This document shows positions 18,133-62,629 of a DNA stretch of 64,000 nucleotides, piece by piece; within the stretch, counting starts at the first letter, position 1, and the number at the start of each line of letters is the position of its first letter. The notes below the pieces were generated by a model. It had not been told where the DNA came from, did not search any database, and was given only the letters and a program-made list of their open reading frames with translations. The position numbers and the translations under genes were made by a program. The stretch covers positions 1,984,001-2,048,000 of the forward strand of contig NEEC01000019.1 in NCBI GenBank assembly GCA_002189035.1, read 5' to 3'. The DNA comes from Utricularia gibba (lineage: Eukaryota > Streptophyta > Magnoliopsida > Lamiales > Lentibulariaceae).

Positions 18133-21055
18133 CTACTTCTTCTTAAATACACCACTTATTTTATTTCCAATAAGTTTCACAAGGCCCTTCTTCCTCTGGG
18201 TGCTAGTGTTTGTGCCACTCCGACTCTCGAGTTGCGGATGCCTTGGAAGATATGATATCGAATTCCTAGCAGCTATGCCTTGCGGAGCCCAAGGGGGATG
18301 TGATATTGAATCACATGCCGTTGTTGAGGTGGGTTGTATAGCAAGACCCAATTCGAGACCATCATACGACGAATGTCTGAACGAGGAGCCTCCCGGTTTG
18401 TTGTATCCTGTGGACAGTAATGTGCTATCTCGCCTAGAATGTGGTACCTCATTGTAAGAAGGGATCGGATACGCCGAAGACTCTTTGAATGAGGGCGCGT
18501 ATCCATAATCTTGGCTTGGAGGAGGAGGAGTATTCAAATCAATCGAGCTTGGTCCCTTACTTGCATCCTGTTGTCTCCTAGAATGCCTCGATGTACTATT
18601 ATGTGAATCTTCTAGTCCATGTTGTTGCATTGACTGGTTTCGGGTGATGCCAGATGAGGCTTCATTCGGTTTCCGTTGCCTCTCACGTCTAGTTGCTCTC
18701 TGCTCAAAATCTGGTGGCCCCTTGTACCTTGTTGACTGTGTTCGACCGACGGTGACTCGTTTACGTGCTGGGTCAACCAAGAGCTCAAAGGGTGCGGGTT
18801 CCCATTCACTCTCATCTCTTACCGGATTAATGCTACCTCGGTACATATTAACCATTGTGGTTACAAGGTAGTATACCGAGGCTCGAGTCCTTGGATTGAT
18901 ACGAAATTTATGAAGGGCCTGCATGTAATCAATGCATTTAAATCATAGGAAAAATGATATAACAGATATCGTATTATTACCTTTTGTGCATGACGACAAG
19001 GGTAACGGTCTATGTTCCAAATCCCGCAGGCACACTCTCCTTGGATAACACGCACCCTTCGGGATTGAGAAGAGTGCGGAGTCTCCTCTATGATGTCTGC
19101 CACCTGATTCTCAGTATCATACACAATGCATTGTAGGAATGGCAATGCTCTCGCTTCCTCTCGATATGCTTCCTCCACTACTCTCCCAAAAAGTATGCCC
19201 TCTTTATGTCTCTTTATCGCTTGCTGCTCGCTATTTCTCAAAATACTCTCTTCCTTTCTCGAAAGTAACCTGAAATTTTCTTGAATATTATAAAAGATTG
19301 ATAGTATAAAGGCTCAAACATTATTGCATATCATAATACCTTGGCAATTTGGGTTGGAGGTAAGCGTCGAGCTTCCCTCAGGGCACCGTTCAAAGCTTCC
19401 GCATGATTGGTGGTCATTATGGTATACCTGTACATGATGTTTGTAGATAATATAATTTGTGATGTCATATCAAATTCATAATTTTAAAAAATAACCGAAA
19501 AACTACTAACCGATATCCTCCATCATATAGCAATGTCCACTCATCAAATGGAATATCTTCCAAATAAGCATGTGCCTTTGGATAGTGCTCTTTCAAGTGA
19601 TTCCATGCATTTTGAAAATCTACCTCATTCCTAGCATAAGAAACCCTATGCACCATGTTGGACACACCCTTCGATCGTCTTCCAATATGCGTCTGAACAT
19701 TCTTGCGGAGGTGCCAATAACAAAAACGATGCACGCCATAATGGGGAAACCATTCCTTGTAGTTCCTATATGCTGCTAATATGCCTGCGGCACGGTCACT
19801 TATGATACATACTCCTTCTCTATCTCGGACAATATGCATTCCAAGCAATCCTAAAAACCACGTCCAATCCTCCTCACTCTCACTTCTTACGAAGGCGTAA
19901 GCGACAGGGCAAATCTTGTTGCTCCCATCAATGGCAACCGCAACAAGCAGCTTGTAGTCATAGCGACCGTATAAGTGTGTGACGTCGATACATAGCACCG
20001 GACGAGCATAGGCGAAGGCTCGAATCGCAAAACCGAATGCCCAAAAACCCTTCTTAGATAATGTGGGCCCTGGGTATCCTGTGCATCATCACCCCAATTG
20101 ACCACAGTGCCTGAGTTTCTATGACGAACCTCTTCTAGATACCGTGGTAGCTCTATCACAAACTTCTCCCAGGTACTGTAGCAAAGTTTGTATGCACGGA
20201 TCATGCAAGCCCAGGCCTGCCACTTGCTAACCTCATACCCCCACTTGTCTCTGATAATCAACTGCACCCCTTTGATTGTGAGCGTGGCTTTCAAGTATGG
20301 TTTCAATCGAGGCGCAATGAATTTGATTGATAGGTTGGCATGATGACCAGCTCCCAATGAATCAGTCACATCGCAAGTATGTGGCTCCACCAGCATAGTA
20401 ATCCTTCATGTGTTCGTCTTCTTGCTAGGTCCCCCACGCAGCGCAAATGGGCAATTACTACTTCCATTTGCTGCTTGTCGACAAATGACGGAATAATTCT
20501 TTATGTCACTCTTATACACCTTGAACTCTCGTTGTGCCATCGATACATGATATCTCATCACTGCATCCATCAGACTTTGTCTATCATTAAAATGCATACG
20601 CTCACGCAGATGCATCTCCTCTGCCTATTGTGTATCCATAGATGGGATTCGATCATAATAATCTGCAGGGAACCCTCTTCCAAGTCATCAAGAGTTGCAT
20701 CATTGTCATCTACCCCAATAGATGGTGTAGCACCTATGTTTCCGTCATCCAACGCGGCTATTGCCATAGCCACCTCCTCTGGGGTCGGGATAAATTCATC
20801 ATCAGAGTCACTCTCGACAGTATCTGCAATGTAATCAGAAACATCATCACTGTTGTACTCTGGAAATTCCTCATGCTCCTCCATGGGGTCATCGTAAGAG
20901 GCAGCATTTTCATGATGAGGCTCAGATAGTTGAGGATGTGGAAAATCGAACGGGTCAAAATCTTGTTCAATGTAGGACGACGGGAGTAAGTTGTACAAAT
21001 TTTGATAGTATTCTGAATCGAAATATTGTTGATCTTGAATCGGTTGCGGAGCCAT
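18133..21055 (-). pseudogene. MULE transposase (MuDR family), interrupted
   Basis: Transposase reading frame of the element, broken in several places. Starting at about 21055 (MAPQPIQDQQ), it has an acidic N-terminal region, then a MuDR N-terminal domain (20615-20410), then the MULE catalytic domain with LCIDVTHLYG and IISDRAAGI carrying two of the catalytic acids, then NHAEALNGALREARR (about 19340-19430), then a SWIM finger of the form C-x-C-x8-C-x-H (CACGIWNIDRYPCRH, about 19000-19040), then a Ser/Arg-rich tail ending KKGLVKLIGNKISGVFKKK at 18133. Introns are plausible at 19465-19510, 19283-19340 and 18921-18980. Lesions: an in-frame TGA (20406-20408) where a Trp is expected, and a frame change between about 20040 and 20095. 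Confidence 0.85.
20406..20408 (-). other. in-frame nonsense codon in the transposase
   Basis: The minus strand reads ...AAC ACA TGA AGG ATT..., with the same frame open on both sides. The Thr-stop-Arg-Ile context fits an ancestral TGG (Trp) changed to TGA. Confidence 0.75.
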
Positions 21056-33109: not shown

Positions 33110-35115
33110 TACATTATCCTGCGGATCGAGAGAGCCTTGACCCCAAGGCTCAAAGTCAGGAAAATGACGTCGAAGCCAAGAAGCATCTTCCCAAGTGGCG
33201 TGTGCTGGGTGCGCATCAGCCCACTAGATAAGTAATTGAAGGCAGGGGAGACAATTGCGAGAAATGAGACGACGATTCAAGATACGAGAGGGGTGAGGAT
33301 GGGTTTTCCGTCATTAGAATACTGGGGTAAGTTAGGAGTGGGGAGAGTTTGGGGCTGATACATTTTTTGAGAAGGGACACATGAAAAACTGGGTGGATTT
33401 TGGAGTCAGCCGGTAAATCTAATCGATATGCAACTGTGCCAATTTTTTCCAGAATGGGATAGGGGCCAAAATAGCGGCAGGAAAGTTTCAGATTTCGGCG
33501 AATGGCAACCGAGGTTTGACGATAGGGTTGGAGCTTCAGATATACTAAGTCACCAGGTTGGAAAAGGCGTTCAGAACGATGTTGATCAGCATAAGTTTTC
33601 ATGCGATTTTGGGCTTGCTGTAAGTTGCCTTTGAGTAACTGGAGCATTTGTAAGCGATATTGAAGGGAGGGGATGGGTTCATTGAGAGAGGAAGGGGGTG
33701 GGGTGCCAGGAAGGTGGGAAGGGGTATACCCATATAGAGCCTCAAAGGGGGTCATTTTCAAGCTGGTGTGATAAGAGGTATTGTACCAATATTCAGCCAT
33801 GGCAAGCCAAGAAGTCCATTTTTTGGGTTGGTGGTGGCATACAGCACGAAGGTATGTCTCCAAACATTGGTTCACCCGTTCAGTCTGCCCATCAGATTGA
33901 GGGTGATATGAAGTAGAGAGGTTTAATTGGATATCAAGGCGCTTACAAAGGAGGGACCAGAAATGACTGGTGAACAGTTTATCTCGATCGGAGATAATAT
34001 TAGTGGGTAGCCCATGGAGTTTATAGATGTTGTCCAGAAAGATCTCGGAGACCATTTCCGCAGAGAATGGGTGAGCTAAGGGGAAAAAGTGTGCATACTT
34101 CATTAAGCGGTCCACCACCACAAAAATCACCGTTTTTCCATGAGAAATAGGTAAACCTTCAATGAAATCCATACTAATCGAACTCCATTGTTTCTCAAGA
34201 ATAGGAAGAGGTTGGAGCAAACCGGGAGATGCTGATCTATCAAAATGAATTTGACGACAGGTCCCACATTCTTGAACCCATTGTTCAATATGTTTATGCA
34301 TATTCTTCCAATAAAAATACCTTTTCAGGCGTTGGTAGGTGGTGTGGGCACCCGAGTGGCCCCCAATGGCAGAAGAGTGAAGGGCCAAGAAAAATTTGCC
34401 TTGAAGGTCTTTATCAGCGCCAATGCACCATCGGCCTTATATTTGAGTAGGTCATTGTGGAGTTGAAATTTGGGAAAAGATGAGGGGTCCGCTAATTTAC
34501 TAATATAAATGTCATGAAGATAAGGATTTTGTTTATAACTGTGTTGTATCTCCAGGAGCCATTCCGGTTGTAAGGAAGAAAGGATAAAGAGATGTGCTGT
34601 GCATGAGAGAGCATCTGCTGCCAAATTCTCACAGCCATGTTTGTAGTGAATGTCAAAATCATATCCAATTAATTTTGACATCCATTTCTGTTGAAAAAGA
34701 GTGCCTAAACCTTGCTCCTTCAAGAATCGCAAGCTTTGATGGTCTGTTTTGACAGTGAAATGGCCGCTCATCAAATAGTGTTTCCAATAAAGAATAGCTT
34801 GTACCACTGTAATTAATTCCTTTTCATATATAGATTTTCCCAAAAATTTGTCACCCAGAGCCTTTGAAAAATAAGCAATAGGATGTCCGTCTTGAGTAAG
34901 AACTGCGCCAATCCCAGGGTCACATGCGTCAGTTTCCACAATAAATGGCTTATGGAAGTTGGGGAGAGATAATACCGGGGCAGAAGAGACCACTTGTTTT
35001 AATAAGTGAAGTGTGTGAGTCACATCATCGTTTCAACCGAAATTATATTTCTTCAATAATTGGGTGAGAGGACGACTAATCAGCCCATAACCATGTATAA
35101 AACGTCTATAATAGC
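33110..35115 (-). mobile_element. truncated Ty3/gypsy retrotransposon pol fragment
   Basis: Read on the minus strand, it starts inside the reverse transcriptase end ([20 protein letters not shown], about 35050-35110). It continues through RNase H (FIVETDACDPGIGAVLTQDG, FTVKTDHQSLRFL), an H2C2 zinc finger ([24 protein letters not shown]), the integrase core ([32 protein letters not shown]) and the C-terminal chromodomain-like end (ATWEDASWLRRHFPDFEPWG, about 33130-33180). Gag, protease and most of the reverse transcriptase are missing, and no LTRs are seen. A stop replaces a Trp at 35033-35035, and there are frame changes near 34360-34390 and 33220-33240. A dead relic. Confidence 0.9.
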
Positions 35116-35658
35116 CAGTTATTATACATAAAATATGAAATATTTTAATTTAAATATGAAATATATATCAATATATTTCATGTTTCTATATTTTTATCCG
35201 TGTATTAACATATTAAAAAACAATAATAAATATAGCATTATTTTGAATTTAAATTGTATAATAAAAAATTAATAAAATTAATAATATTATTTATTCTAGT
35301 ATTCATTTTCTTATCCATTCTTATCTTGTTTATTTATATTATTACAGATACAACCAAATTTTCCACATTATTAAAAAAAGTTTATTACAAAAATTAATAT
35401 GCTAGGAGTTCACGTGGAACACGACTGAATGAGAAATTGTAGTTGCACTCTGGTTCTATTTAAACTAGCGTCGCCATGTTGCACTCATCAATGGCTCCGA
35501 CGCCAGCAATGATGATCCCTCAAAGTACTGTTTTGATATTCAATTCTGGGCTTCCGTGGAGTCCAATTCCCATTGAGCCGCCCAGGCGCTTCATATGATA
35601 TTTCAGATTTTGGATCTGCTTCTGGGTTCATTTGATCAGCTGTCTCTGAGCATCGACT
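35116..35658. other. NPP 5' flank
   Basis: About 540 bases, very AT-rich to 35400, then more balanced. The promoter and leader of the pyrophosphatase gene are expected in the last 200 bases. Nothing else is seen. Confidence 0.5.
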
Positions 35659-37076
35659 ATGGATCCAAAATTCAGGAAAGGTGATTCCCAGTTCATGGTT
35701 TCGTCGTCCTCTGAGCTTTTGCAGCGAAGCTGCAACAACCCATTTTCTAAATGTAAGATTTTTGTCATCTCTCACCTACGATTAATTTTCATTCCGCTGC
35801 TTGTAGCTCTTGCCCTCGCCGTTTTGTTCTTCTCCACTCATCCTGCTGCTTCAAATGTCATGGGTACTTCCAATTATCAATTCGCAAGACCCCTCTCAAA
35901 GCTGAGAAAACCCGTTGTTATACTCATCTCAAGTGATGGTTTTCGATTTGGTTATCAATACAAAACCGATACCCCAAACATCGATGAACTGATTCGAAAC
36001 GGGGTTGAAGCGGATCTGGGGTTGATTCCTTCTTTCCCGACGATTACTTTCCCCAATCATTACACCATCGCTACCGGGTTGTACCCCCATACCATGGAAT
36101 TATCATGAACCGTTTCACTGACCCGGTATCTGGGGACCTCTTCACCATGGCTAATCATGACCCCAAATGGTGGCTTGGTGAACCAGTATGGGAAACAGTA
36201 GTGAAGCTTGGTTTGAAAGCTGCGGTTTACTTTTGGCCCGGTTCTGAGGTCAAGAAAGGTGCTTGGGATTGCCCCAAAACCTTCTGTCCACCTTATAATG
36301 GCTCTGTTCCTTTTGAAGAGAGAGTGGATACTGTTTTGAGCTATTTTGATTTGCCCATTGATGATATCCCTTCTTTCGTTGCTTTATACTTTGAGGATCC
36401 TGATGCTCAAGGACACGAAGTTGGACCAGATGATCCTCGGATCACAGAAGCGGTTGCTAGAATTGATAGAACTATTGGAAGATTGATTGATGGATTAAAA
36501 CAGAGAAGTTTGTTTGAAGATGTTCACATCATTCTTGTTGCTGATCATGGAATGGTGGGAACATGTGATGAAAAGCTCATCTTCCTAGATGATCTAGCTG
36601 AGTGGATTGAAATCCCACCTCAATGGGTTCAATCTTACTCACCCTTGCTAGCAATCACACCAGACTCAAATGTTTCTGCTAAAGATGTGGTGGAGAAGAT
36701 GAACCAGGGATTAGCATCAGCCAGAGTGAAGAATGGGGAGTACTTGAAGGTTTATCTCAAGGAAGATTTACCTCTTCGGCTCCATTACTCAGACAGTTAT
36801 CGAATCCCACCGATTATCGGTTTGCCTGAAGAAGGCTTCACGATTCAGCAAACACCATCGACTGCACAGCAGTGTGGAGGTGCCCATGGGTATGATAACA
36901 AATTTTTCTCAATGAGGGCAATTTTCTTTGCACATGGGCCGAGGTTTCCCAGGGGAAGAAAAGTTCCTTCCTTCGCAAATGTCGAGATATATAATCTGGT
37001 TACCGCCATTCTCAACATCAGCGGAGCTCCGAACAACGGCACGGAGTCTTTCGCGGACGGCATTCTCCTGACTTGA
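35659..37076 (+). pseudogene. Ectonucleotide pyrophosphatase/phosphodiesterase (NPP), 1-bp frameshift
   Basis: Type I phosphodiesterase/nucleotide pyrophosphatase; the family hydrolyses extracellular or luminal nucleotides and nucleotide sugars. Apparently intronless, about 472 residues if the frame were continuous. The N-terminus is cytoplasmic with one membrane anchor (about residues 40-60, LIFIPLLVALALAVLFF). The metal/catalytic sites are present: SSDGF, the nucleophile Thr in SFPTITFPNHYTIATGLYP, DPDAQGHEVGP, VADHGM and GAHGYDN. At 36093/36094 one base (a C) is missing compared with the expected HTHG codons. The first frame stops at 36108 (TGA), while the second frame continues to the TGA at 37074-37076 without further damage. 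Either a recent pseudogene or a consensus error. Confidence 0.88.
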
Positions 37077-41894: not shown

Positions 41895-44800
41895 TCAGAG
41901 TTCGTGATCCCTTGTTCTGTGGGAACTATCTGTTTCTGTTCTGGCAAATTGCCCTCTAACACGAGGCCGCTGCTCTCCTAAATTCCGTCTGTTCTGATAT
42001 TGCACCTGATGAAAGACAGGAGGGATTAAAAACCAATGCAGTGAAATAAGCAACCAACAGAAGCTGTTAGGGATGAGAATCTTCAAATATAGGTAATTAT
42101 GAGACAATTAAAAATTCCCATATCGAGCATATGTCCTTTTCTCTAGTCACTTTTGATGCAAACTGCCAGCTCTAAAACATGTACACAATGTGAAACTGAC
42201 AAACGTTCTCGCCATTCACAATTGTAGAAAAAAATCTCCCTGCACAGTTGTAAAATAATTGCTCGTCTCATAAGCCTCCAGCAGAGGATTCATCATATCA
42301 AATGGCATATAAACTAGTATTAATGATATAAGGTAAGAAGATGCTGGTATATATCCAGGTAACCTGAAAAGTATTGTATCCAATACCTTTTTCTTGAAGA
42401 CCTCTCCTTCCTCTTTTGACGCAGCTTGATCATGGCAGCTGCGCGCTTCAGTTTACTTTCATCATCTCTATTACCACTTACACTGCCGCTCGCATCTCCA
42501 TTTCCACTTTTCCCTGCTTGATCAACACCACTTTCAGCATTATTCCCTGCGGTATGTGTTGCAGGATTGCTTCCACTGGGTCCATTACTGACATGGTTAC
42601 TTCCTGAGTTGCTTTTGTTAAAACTATAGTGCCTATTTTCTACTTCCATTGGTCCGCTCAATGCGTTTGTGGAACCACAAAGTGAGGCATCTACAGTTAA
42701 CTTCAATGAAGATGATTCATGATGGTCAGATGATGGTTGGTCAACCATAAAATGACAGTGCGACGGACTGTAATATTTTGCATTCAGATGCCGAATCTGA
42801 GTCTCATGTTTTGATCCTGAACAAGCATCTGTTGTCTGCACGCCATCAGGAGGACTGGCTTTCTGTTGACTGTATCTGAGTTCATTTTCTAGATGTCTGA
42901 AAGCAGAAGGATTAAAGCCATTAACTGTTGAAGTTCCTTCACAATTATTTTTAGGAAGCTTAGCTGTAGTGGAGCCCATGTCTGCTGTGTTGCTGACTCC
43001 ATTTGAAAATTGTTGAAGAGTACGGTCAGAAGGCTGCAGTTCCTCATTAGACTTCCCTTTCGCAGTATGCATGCTGCTGTCAATTATGGTGCTACTTCCA
43101 GTGATCTCAATGGGAGTCTTGATAGCATTTGCGGATGTATTATACCTGACATTGACAGAGTTAACCAAAATAGGCTGGCCATTTTGGCTAAACTTGAACT
43201 GAGATACGAAAAAGTTTGGATCTTTATAAACCTTGAGAATGCTGATTGCTCTGAGCGGCGCAAGATACAGCGATCTTCTTGGGAACATATCTCTGCATCA
43301 TGAATTCCTCTCAATCTTTTTAAGCTAAGCTCCACACTAGACTCTTTACTACCATCATTTGCACAATGGCTGACGTTGATTCTGTTCGCCACTTCTGTCA
43401 TGGAATCAGCTTTCTTAGCTAAAGAGTTACTTGGTTCTGGCACAGGATCTCCAGATTTGGTATCATCAGTTCTTTGTGCAATCGAGAACAAGTCTTTGTC
43501 ATTCTTCTCCGCATTATCTAAATCAAATCACCCTTAGACCATCTATGGGGAACGGTAACAGTTTAAGGAAAACATTAGCTTAGCACTATACCAGGATGTT
43601 TATGCTGCAGGCCGTCCCTTGCTAAACTAACTTGCACCTTAATGTTGTCGGTATTCTCTGCATTAGATGGAATATCTTGAGCACATGTGCTGTCAGGGCA
43701 CTCAGCAATCTGATCTGTTGGAGATACAGCACGAGAGCTGTCCACTTCCAGAGCTTGCCTTGTCCAAGAACTCTGAAAAATGGATCAATTAAAAGTTCCT
43801 TGAATATAAGATACTGTGAGAACACCCTAGAAGTAGAAGTAGCATTAGACTGAAAATAATAACAGCAATCCCATCATTAAATAATGCAAGAGATTTAAGG
43901 ACAGAAGCCACGAAGGGAATACAACCTGAGTGCCACTCCCATTGTCGCTTCCATCAACAGTGTTTTGTCCGTTACTCCCGTCATTTTCACCATTATCACC
44001 TGATCTCTCACTACTGTTTGACTTCACAAACTTCTGAGCTTGTGTGCCACTTTCACTACCGCTTCCACTAGACTAAAATAACAAAATATAAAAATCAGCA
44101 AGACAGGCCAGCTGAAAAGCTAAAAACAATTGACAACATTGTTTATAAATTAACACGGAGAAAAACTAACACTGTGACACCTCCTCCATACATGCTGCCA
44201 AAGTATCTTAAGCTCATTCTTTCTGATGGGCTTGACCAAGAAGTCAACAGCACCTCTGGAGAGACACTTGAAGACTAAACCCATTGAATCATGCGACGAC
44301 ATCACTGCATGGAGTAGTACCCAAGATTCAAAAAAATGTGACTGCCATTTGGCACACTTAAAAATGGATAAGCTCACTTATCACAGGAGTATTCTTTCGG
44401 GTTTTGTGGCTCATAATCTTGTGTAACAAACCTATGCCTGATAAGATAGGCATTACTACTTCAGTTAAAATAATATCAACATGATTCGACAAATCTTCCA
44501 AAATTTTCCACGCTTGCATTCCATTTGCTGCATTCAGTACTGCATTGAGATTTGAACAAGAATTAGACATACGGGCTTCATAAACAGATACATCTTAAAA
44601 CACTGCCCATCATGAGCATTAATACTTCTTTTAGCCTCTTCTTGGTTTACAAGCTCACAATGCTACACCTTCATCCTACCTGAAATGAAATTTTGCAAAC
44701 ACACAAACCTTCATAATTGCAGTTTCGAAGCAATGCAGTGACAACACAGCGCGTAGAATCATCATTCTCTACCAGCAAAACCCTAATGGATCTCACATTG

Positions 44801-45036
44801 AGAAACTTTTGCCAGAAGGCTAAATTCCCATTACTCATCTGCTGCTGATGATCAACCGGCTTAGTTTCAACAATACCATCAGCATCATCAGCTTCTCCTT
44901 GCTTTTCAATTTGAATCACTGGATCAACCCTTAAATCACTGGCTAGAACAGCGCAATGTCTATCCCTTGAAGCGATGTCTTTTTTACTGTTGTCGTCATC
45001 TGGCGGCTCCTTTTCCTCAATAGCATCAATGTTCAT
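41895..45036 (-). pseudogene. PRR7: Pseudo-response regulator, PRR7/PRR37-like, frameshift in CCT motif
   Basis: Circadian-clock transcriptional repressor family. Coding exons in transcript order: 44709-45036, 44378-44539, 44171-44304, 43926-44072, 43592-43772, 43232-43517, 42387-43145, 41895-42005. The pseudo-receiver domain (VLLVENDDSTR, with Glu in place of the phospho-Asp region, then TEVVMPILSGIGLL and [14 protein letters not shown]) is complete, followed by the PRR7-type Ser/Asn/Gly-rich linker, SSWTRQALEVDS and the SLKRLRG box. The CCT motif is split over the last two exons: AAAMIKLRQKRKER, then VQYQNRRNLGEQRPRVRGQF. One G is missing between 42399 and 42400 inside the expected ERCF codons. 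As written, the spliced frame ends at a TAG nine codons into the last exon, removing half of the CCT. With the frame continuous, the protein would be 702 residues. Confidence 0.9.
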
Positions 45037-59590: not shown

Positions 59591-60467
59591 TAACATTTGA
59601 TCCGGGTCGATTTGTTCATCTCCAAATTGATTGGCTATATAATACTATTTTGTAATTGATATCAAAATAGTTGATTTTAAATAATTATTTTTATTTCCTT
59701 AATATATAAAAAATTATAAATATAAAACTAGTGATTTAGTAACCGTATCTTACGTTGTAAAATACAGGAAGAGATATGTTTAAATAAAATAACAATTCTA
59801 ATACTTGGGAGATGCATCCAGCTTCATTGGGCCTCATCGTGGGCACCAAGGTATCCAAATAGTGAGCTGAGCTAGCTTACGTTCTCGTAGGGATGGAGCT
59901 CAGGGCCCACAATCGCAACCTCCTACTCCTACTCTGTGCTGGACCAGCCCATATTCTGCTCCACCAAAAAAGTATAACTTCTACTCAGGGAATCGATCCA
60001 CTTGACAGGCCGGTAAGAGCCCACTGTTAAAATGCAATAAAAAAGCCCACACCCTTTCAGTGCAACACCGTTGGTTTAATCCGCGTGGAGCAGGAGGGTC
60101 ATGTAATGAGTCGCATTCATTACCGCAGTAAACCTGCAAAGCATTGCATATGCGTTGTTACACACAACTGATTTCGATTTCAAGTGTTTTATTTTGAGTC
60201 TAGTAATTTGTCACAAAATTTATAAACATTTGAAATTTTGTTTCAAACAAGTGACCGTTGGAATCCACACGTGGCGACCACGTGTCCCTCCCCATCCCAT
60301 CTACGGATTCTCCAGTATTTGCAGGGACGTCCCTCCAGACCCACAATTTTACATTCTTGCATCCATATCGTTGCCTGTTGCTCCACTCTTTTTCGCATCT
60401 CCATTCTCTCTCCAACCCGGCATTTAGTGCGTCCTCCGTCCTCCGATGGAAGTCTGAAGGAGATAAA
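59591..60467. promoter_or_regulatory. NPH3 3' flank and lectin kinase promoter
   Basis: About 880 bases. 59591-59800 is AT-rich 3' flank. Several GGGCC/GCCCA motifs lie at 59828-60050. A pair of inverted G-boxes lies at 60268-60284, about 190 bases upstream of the kinase ATG. Confidence 0.5.
60268..60284. promoter_or_regulatory. inverted G-box pair (CACGTGG-CGA-CCACGTG)
   Basis: Two perfect CACGTG G-boxes in opposite orientation with a 3-base core, forming a 17-base near-palindrome. G-boxes bind bZIP (ABF/GBF) and bHLH (PIF/MYC) factors. Use by the lectin kinase promoter is inferred from distance. Confidence 0.6.
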
Positions 60468-62629
60468 ATGGGGGGGTCGATTCTTTCCGGCAGGTTGGTC
60501 GTTTGTTTCGTGGTTATTCTCATGTTCGCCCGCAGGGATCCAACAGCGGCGATAGAGTTTGACTTCGGTACACTGACACTGTCCACCTTGAAGCTCATCG
60601 GCGACGCACATTTGAGCAACGGGAGCGTGAGATTGACTCGCGACGTCGGCGTGCCGTACTCCGGCGCCGGCAAGGTCGTATATTCCAAGCCCGTGATTTT
60701 CCGCCGACCTGGTACTCTCTCCAAGGCGAGCTTCTCGACATTCTTCTCGTTTTCAGTAACCAACTTGAATCCATCTTCAATCGGCGGTGGATTAGCCTTC
60801 CTCATCTCGTCGGACGGCGAGTACGTCGGCGACGCTGGCGGGTACATGGGAATAATGAATGCCACTGGGCCCCGAAACGGCGTCGTGGCCGTGGAGTTCG
60901 ATACTCAAATGGATGTCGAATTCAAGGACATAAACGGGAATCATGTGGGTTTGGATCTGGGTTCCATGATTTCTTCTCGAATCGGTGATTTGGACGCCGC
61001 CGGAGTTGATCTGAAAAGCGGGGATCTCGTTAATTCGTGGGTGGATTACTCTGGCTCCACCGGAGAAATCGAGGTCTATGTTTCATATTCGAACTCAAAG
61101 CCTAGAGAACCCATTGTCTCCACTATCGTTGATTTTGATAACCACTTGGACAAAGATTTCACCTATGTAGGTTTCAGTGGATCCACACAGGGTAGCACAG
61201 AAATTCATACAATTCAATGGTGGAGTTTCCGATCGTTTTTCGAAGATGACATCTCGCAGCCTCCTCCGCCGTCTGCTGCCACTGATCAAGCAACAAAGTC
61301 GCACTCCACCTCGCATTCCGCCGCTGCCGAAACCAGCGCAAAGTGTGCTGGCGCGGTGGCTGGAGTAGTTACCGCCGGCGCATTCTTGCTTGGCCTCTGC
61401 GGCGTAGCCTTGGTATGGTTTCACAGAAAGAAATACAAACCGGAGAAGAAACCTGTTACTCTGGCCTCTGAAGTCGTCAAAATGCCGAAAGAATTCAGCT
61501 ACAGAGAGCTGCTGATCGCGACAAAAGGATTCAATTCTTCAAGGATAGTAGGCCACGGCGCATTTGGAACTGTCTACAGAGGAGTTTTACCTGATTCAGG
61601 CGGCCTCGTCGCCGTGAAACGGTGCGGAAACAGTGGTCAGGGGAAAGCAGAATTCCTATCGGAGTTGTCGATAATCGGATCTCTCAGACACAGAAATCTC
61701 GTCAGACTTCAGGGATGGTGTCACGAGAAGCGTGAAAGCTTGCTAGTTTATGATCTTATGACAAATGGCAGTCTGGATAAAGCTCTATTCGAGTCAAGAA
61801 CGCCATTGCCATGGCCGCAGAGGAAGAAAATTTTGCTTGGAGTTGCATCGGCTTTAACATATCTGCACCAAGAATGCGAGAATCAAGTCATCCACCGGGA
61901 TATCAAAACCAGCAACATCATGCTCGATGAAGGGTTCAATGCGAGACTAGGCGATTTCGGATTGGCACGGCAAATCGAGCACGACAAATCCCCAGACGCA
62001 ACGGTTGCCGCCGGCACAATGGGCTATTTGGCCCCGAATACCTAATCAACGGCCGCGCCACCGAGAAAACGGATGTATTCAGCTTTGGCGCGGTGGTTCT
62101 TGAGGTAGCGAGTGGGCGGAGGCCGATCGAGAAGGAAGTGGTGGGCGATGGAAAAGTTGGTGCAACCGCCAATTTAGTGGATTGGGTTTGGAGTTTACAC
62201 AGTGAAGGCCGGGTGATCGCAGCGGCGGATCCACTGCTGGAGAATCAATTCGAGGAAGGAGATATGAGAAGAACATTATCCGTTGGGCTTGCCTGCTCCC
62301 ACCCGGATCCCACTTGTCGGCCGGCGATGAGAACGGTGGTGCAGATCCTGATCGGAGAGGCCGATATTCCTGTTATCCCGAGAACGAAGCCGAGTTTCAG
62401 CTTCACGACATCGGAGCTTCTAGTAAACCTGGAAGACACCATCTCCGACTTGAACGGAATGGTGGCCATGTCGTCGACATCGTCATCGGAGAACAGCTTC
62501 CCTATCCTATCCCTGGGAGGGGGAGGGGAGGGGGTTAAACGCTCATTAAATACAGTAGATTTTGTGTTAATTATTAGTAGGTGTGGTAATTATTGGCTCA
62601 TAACTATTTATTTCATTTGGTATAATTAA
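60468..62629 (+). pseudogene. L-type lectin receptor-like kinase, clade VIII-like, 1-bp frameshift in kinase
   Basis: Plasma-membrane receptor kinase; intronless. A signal peptide (VVCFVVILMFA, cleaved near residue 28) precedes a legume-lectin domain to about residue 265 (IEFDFGTLTL, GGGLAFLISSDG, AVEFDTQMDVEFKDINGNHV). A Ser/Thr/Ala-rich linker and a membrane helix at about 292-317 follow. The kinase domain has GHGAFGTVYRG, AVKRC, HRDIKTSN and DFGLAR. At 62036/62037 one G is missing from the expected CCG-GAA (Pro-Glu of APE), so the first frame ends at a TAA (62043-62045) after about 525 residues. The following frame (YLINGRATEKTDVFSFGAVV, DPLLENQF, HPDPTCRPAM) runs to 62629. The uninterrupted length would be about 720 residues, typical of the clade. 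Whether the lesion is real or a consensus error cannot be told from the sequence. Confidence 0.9.

Follow-up and report, generated by a model that had tools for sequence, protein, structure and literature searches.

The question raised by this locus is whether a plant clock gene has lost half of a DNA-binding motif, or whether its assembled sequence has merely lost a letter. In the window, i.e., the whole stretch of 64,000 nucleotides of Utricularia gibba DNA analysed here, a pseudo-response regulator (PRR) gene on the minus strand is one base short within its CCT motif, which a sequence-only reading took for a 1-bp deletion that, if true, would be agronomically meaningful. PRR37/BTC1 variants in sorghum and beet alter photoperiodic flowering. 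The gene was considered together with its relatives in the genome, other conserved genes and redundant parts of the assembly.

Structure and Identity of the PRR Gene

The locus is best described as an eight-exon PRR3/7-type pseudo-response-regulator gene running from 45036 to 41895 on the minus strand, with GT/AG borders at all seven introns of the model and a frame open throughout apart from 42400/42399. Exon 1 (44709-45036) extends from the start ATG (45036) to the beginning of the pseudo-receiver (...RVLLVENDDSTRCVVTALLRNCNYE), which continues through exon 2 (44378-44539; ANGMQAWKILEDL...ILTEVVMP...TPVI) and ends in exon 3 (44171-44304), the Pfam profile Response_reg matching this N-terminal domain with 77.3 bits over positions 1-107 of 111. 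The model continues with exon 4 (43926-44072), exon 5 (43592-43772), exon 6 (43232-43517; LSLKRLRG ... SAFSR), exon 7 (42387-43145), which encodes the first CCT half (42445-42387) and terminates in phase 2, and exon 8 (41895-42005), where the CCT profile matches the second half (42005-41937), upstream of the stop codon. The change of frame between exons 6 and 7 (43232/43145) was rejected as a lesion, as it corresponds to an ordinary 86-bp intron, and a search for further lesions across the gene model found none.

The receiver reads VDIILTEVVMP, with a Glu at the position expected for the phospho-acceptor Asp of receivers, and as such qualifies as a pseudo-receiver. Together with the split CCT, this bears out the earlier description of a PRR-type clock gene, from which we infer a role in the clock. 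Membership of the PRR3/7 subclade is putatively assigned from motifs, including WRRCHSSSGSGSESG, in which the gene is unlike the remaining PRR genes of the genome, and this gene was the sole one of PRR3/7 type found in the 100 Mb of assembly searched. Compared with PRR7/PRR3/PRR37 proteins (Arabidopsis PRR7, barley Ppd-H1, rice and sorghum PRR37, and soybean GmPRR37), the predicted protein is alike in its N-terminal pseudo-receiver with a changed phospho-acceptor position (LTEV), in its long variable middle and in its C-terminal CCT, which a phase-0 intron interrupts, but as assembled the U. gibba CCT is broken after KER.

The Frame Break in the CCT Motif

Exon 7 ends with the codons CGT CAA AAG AGG AAG GAG AGG TCT TCA AGA AAA AG, immediately before the donor gtattgg, at a cumulative phase of 2, while exon 8 begins at 42005, after tttcatcag, and reads VQYQNRRNLGEQRPRVRGQFARTETDSSHRTRDHEL up to a stop, leaving the second half of the CCT out of frame. 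In all five intron-split PRR relatives of the genome (L012, L013, L055, L056, and L057), the homologous exon ends in phase 0 after ...RCFEKK and the intron sits at the very same position, after the KK codon pair. The sequence-only reading was thus right that a conserved phase-0 intron splits the CCT, and right that the sequence as given is 1 bp short at 42400/42399 on the minus strand (AGGT/CTTC), a shortfall which alone accounts for phase 2 instead of phase 0.

Where the relatives have AGR TGY TTY GAG AAR AAG, exon 7 has AGG TCT TCA AGA AAA AG, the site without any extra base being AGGTCTTC. The proposal that the lost base was the G of the Cys codon goes further than the letters allow, since AGGTCTTCAAG results equally from the loss of G from TGC, T from TCTTTC or C from TCCTTC, so that the identity of the missing base cannot be told. 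Spliced canonically, the product reads KERSSRKRCNIRTDGI, with a stop in the last exon; the eight foreign residues announced earlier are those following the junction (CNIRTDGI), whereas the total from the lesion onwards is 13 (SSRKR plus CNIRTDGI). Reading through the last intron also runs into a stop, and when the assembly was searched for another, allelic copy, none was found, only two PRR5/9-type relatives with 72% identity over 128 bp.

A true deletion could in principle be bypassed by shifted splicing, as an acceptor 17 nt downstream (CAGAACAG followed by A) would restore the frame and yield KERSSRKRRNLGEQRPRVRGQFAR, i.e., a CCT without its VRYxS core. Seven frame-restoring GT/AG pairs were enumerated, among which donor 0 with acceptor +17 would be the least disruptive. 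However, a share of 7 in 70 combinations is expected for any frame, and the canonical acceptor is nearer the branch-point side and is conserved in relatives. Rescue of the frame by other splice sites was rejected, being attainable only via unlikely site pairs, and the bypass itself is very improbable.

Divergence of the CCT

When the frame is bridged by an unknown residue, the CCT reaches 48.7 bits, compared with 70.6 and 71.9 bits for two PRR relatives in the genome, a low value that may stem partly from the unknown residue and partly from a subclade difference. The second half scores about 29.6-29.7 bits, the lowest among the split PRR CCTs of the genome (41.8-44.3 bits for the others), and is nonetheless still recognisable by profile. 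Relative to PRR relatives, the motif (41937-42005 plus 42387-42445) deviates at near-constant positions, namely VQY for VRY, LGE for LAE, and GQFAR for GQFVR. Relaxed constraint is a possible cause of this divergence. It is improbable that the CCT of the only PRR3/7-type gene is under relaxed constraint with its second half truly lost, the morning clock then depending on PRR5/9-type and TOC1-type genes.

The diverged CCT would also fit a decaying duplicate, with the frameshift as one lesion among several. Against this, all eight exons are open with intact splice sites, the receiver domain retains its 77.3 bits, and the gene has no PRR3/7-type counterpart in the 100 Mb searched; such decay is scarcely credible.

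Single-base Frameshifts in Conserved Genes

Two other genes of the window appear to be broken in a similar manner. On the plus strand, a nucleotide pyrophosphatase/phosphodiesterase gene (35650-37073) shows an apparent 1-bp deletion at 36089-36090, in a conserved YPHYHGI stretch, such that positions 1-58 and 57-342 of the profile PF01663 are matched in different frames. On the same strand, an intronless lectin receptor kinase gene (60255-62626) shows an apparent 1-bp deletion in its kinase domain at 62032-62036, the break lying at GGCCCCGAATACC near 62036, with kinase profile positions 2-167 in one frame and 172-255 in another. Both breaks have the appearance of single lost bases. As a side observation made by eye, integrase and reverse-transcriptase-like frames of the Ty3/gypsy type lie on the minus strand at 33219-35032, between a heat-shock-factor-like gene and the pyrophosphatase gene, and MULE-type transposase-like open frames, in several frames, at 18136-20405, also on the minus strand.

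Beyond the window, GRAS genes, which are conserved and mostly without introns, were used as a wider control. Forty loci were aligned to intact relatives of the same genome with a frameshift-aware method, a 1-bp shift being considered strongly supported when at least 10 of 21 residues were identical on each side. Over 15,696 aligned codons (47 kb), 19 strongly supported 1-bp frameshifts, 17 of which are deletions, were found in 12 of the 40 loci, i.e., about one in every 2.5 kb of conserved coding DNA, as opposed to only four in-frame stop codons; such a rarity of nonsense changes relative to frameshifts is unlike true pseudogenes. The picture does not change when L031, possibly a true pseudogene, and L022 and L051, two copies of a single gene, are dropped. 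Introns were rejected as an explanation of the strong cases, as no genomic gap separates the two halves, which either overlap or directly adjoin each other. Three DELLA-like loci (L016, L017, and L018) as well as L015 and L020 are all broken near the RPGGPP motif, at C or G runs, which constitutes a systematic, motif-linked error, and two cytosolic HSP70 genes (L066 and L067) are likewise split by 1-bp shifts in conserved stretches. The assembly as a whole carries an excess of 1-bp indels, from which essential genes are not spared.

Differences between Redundant Contigs

The short contigs C422, C241, and C316 are near-exact duplicates of parts of the long contigs C414, C304, and C412, and correspond to redundant contigs or haplotigs. 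In the redundant pairs compared (L060/L061, L062/L063, and L064/L065; 22.5 kb aligned at an identity of at least 98.9%), 41 gap openings, of which 33 are single-base, were counted against 28 substitutions, and one pair alone exhibits 19 single-base gaps against 5 substitutions in 3.7 kb. Natural variation is rich in substitutions. With gaps outnumbering substitutions, the opposite of natural polymorphism, most of these gaps must be regarded as consensus errors, and an excess of this kind is typical of incompletely polished long reads. According to the literature, unpolished long-read assemblies err most often by short indels, which lead to frameshifts (PMC8081667), and systematic nanopore indels shift reading frames (PMC8011154).

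Many of the clearest errors of this assembly sit in G/C runs, whereas the PRR site lies outside G/C runs and, in this differing from the most typical long-read errors, outside any long homopolymer. Likewise, 17 of the 33 single-base gaps that separate redundant contigs, about half, fall at runs no longer than two bases, and the location of the PRR site is therefore nothing unusual.

Assembly Error or Real Lesion

The rate of 19 shifts per 47 kb corresponds to about 0.85 false frameshifts expected over 2.1 kb of coding sequence, and finding one in the PRR gene is consequently an ordinary outcome. As 1-bp deletions of the same kind occur in many conserved genes and redundant contigs differ mainly by gaps, the PRR lesion is left almost without evidential weight, and the claim that the gene has truly lost half its CCT is not supported. 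The most probable reading, with a probability of about 0.86, is that the missing base is a long-read consensus error in an otherwise ordinary PRR3/7-type gene. A single base would have been dropped in consensus calling, giving exon 7 its apparent phase 2; in the intact gene, both halves of the CCT would be joined across the phase-0 intron into a complete motif, and the protein would work as a clock and flowering-time repressor. We infer that the missing base belongs to the assembly-wide excess of 1-bp indels. This assembly resembles incompletely polished long-read assemblies with frameshift errors (PMC8081667; PMC8011154) in that many genes have lost single bases in conserved coding sequence and gaps predominate over substitutions between redundant copies.

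A true 1-bp deletion, fixed or segregating, that leaves the CCT without its second half is unlikely. The letters as given agree with it, and in view of the unusual divergence of the CCT a real lesion is still given a probability of roughly one in ten; alleles of this kind also exist in soybean, where a nonsense mutation removes the CCT of GmPRR37 (PMC7415786) and premature stops occur in GmPRR3a/b (PMC7999361). It has against it the number of false frameshifts expected at this length, a gene free of any other lesion and a second half of the CCT that can still be recognised. Until reads are checked, no gene loss can be read from a single-base frameshift of this assembly, however well known the gene.

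Significance of CCT Loss in PRR Genes

The statement that CCT loss in PRR37/PRR3 genes alters flowering agrees with the literature, early flowering resulting from it in both soybean GmPRR37 and GmPRR3a/b (PMC7415786; PMC7999361), and both nuclear localisation and DNA binding depend on the CCT (PMC7999361). The U. gibba protein predicted from the assembly likewise is without a complete CCT, but the soybean alleles are genetically confirmed (PMC7415786; PMC7999361) while the U. gibba case is known from one assembly alone. If the lesion were true, the truncated protein would still have its pseudo-receiver but could no longer bind DNA, nor perhaps be imported into the nucleus; as the stop falls in the last exon, nonsense-mediated decay should not affect the transcript, and the outcome would probably be a loss-of-function flowering allele, new but of the kind already known from soybean. 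A literature search combining CCT domain, DNA binding and splicing gave nothing of use. The structures of the CCT regions of CONSTANS and Hd1 align across the whole motif.
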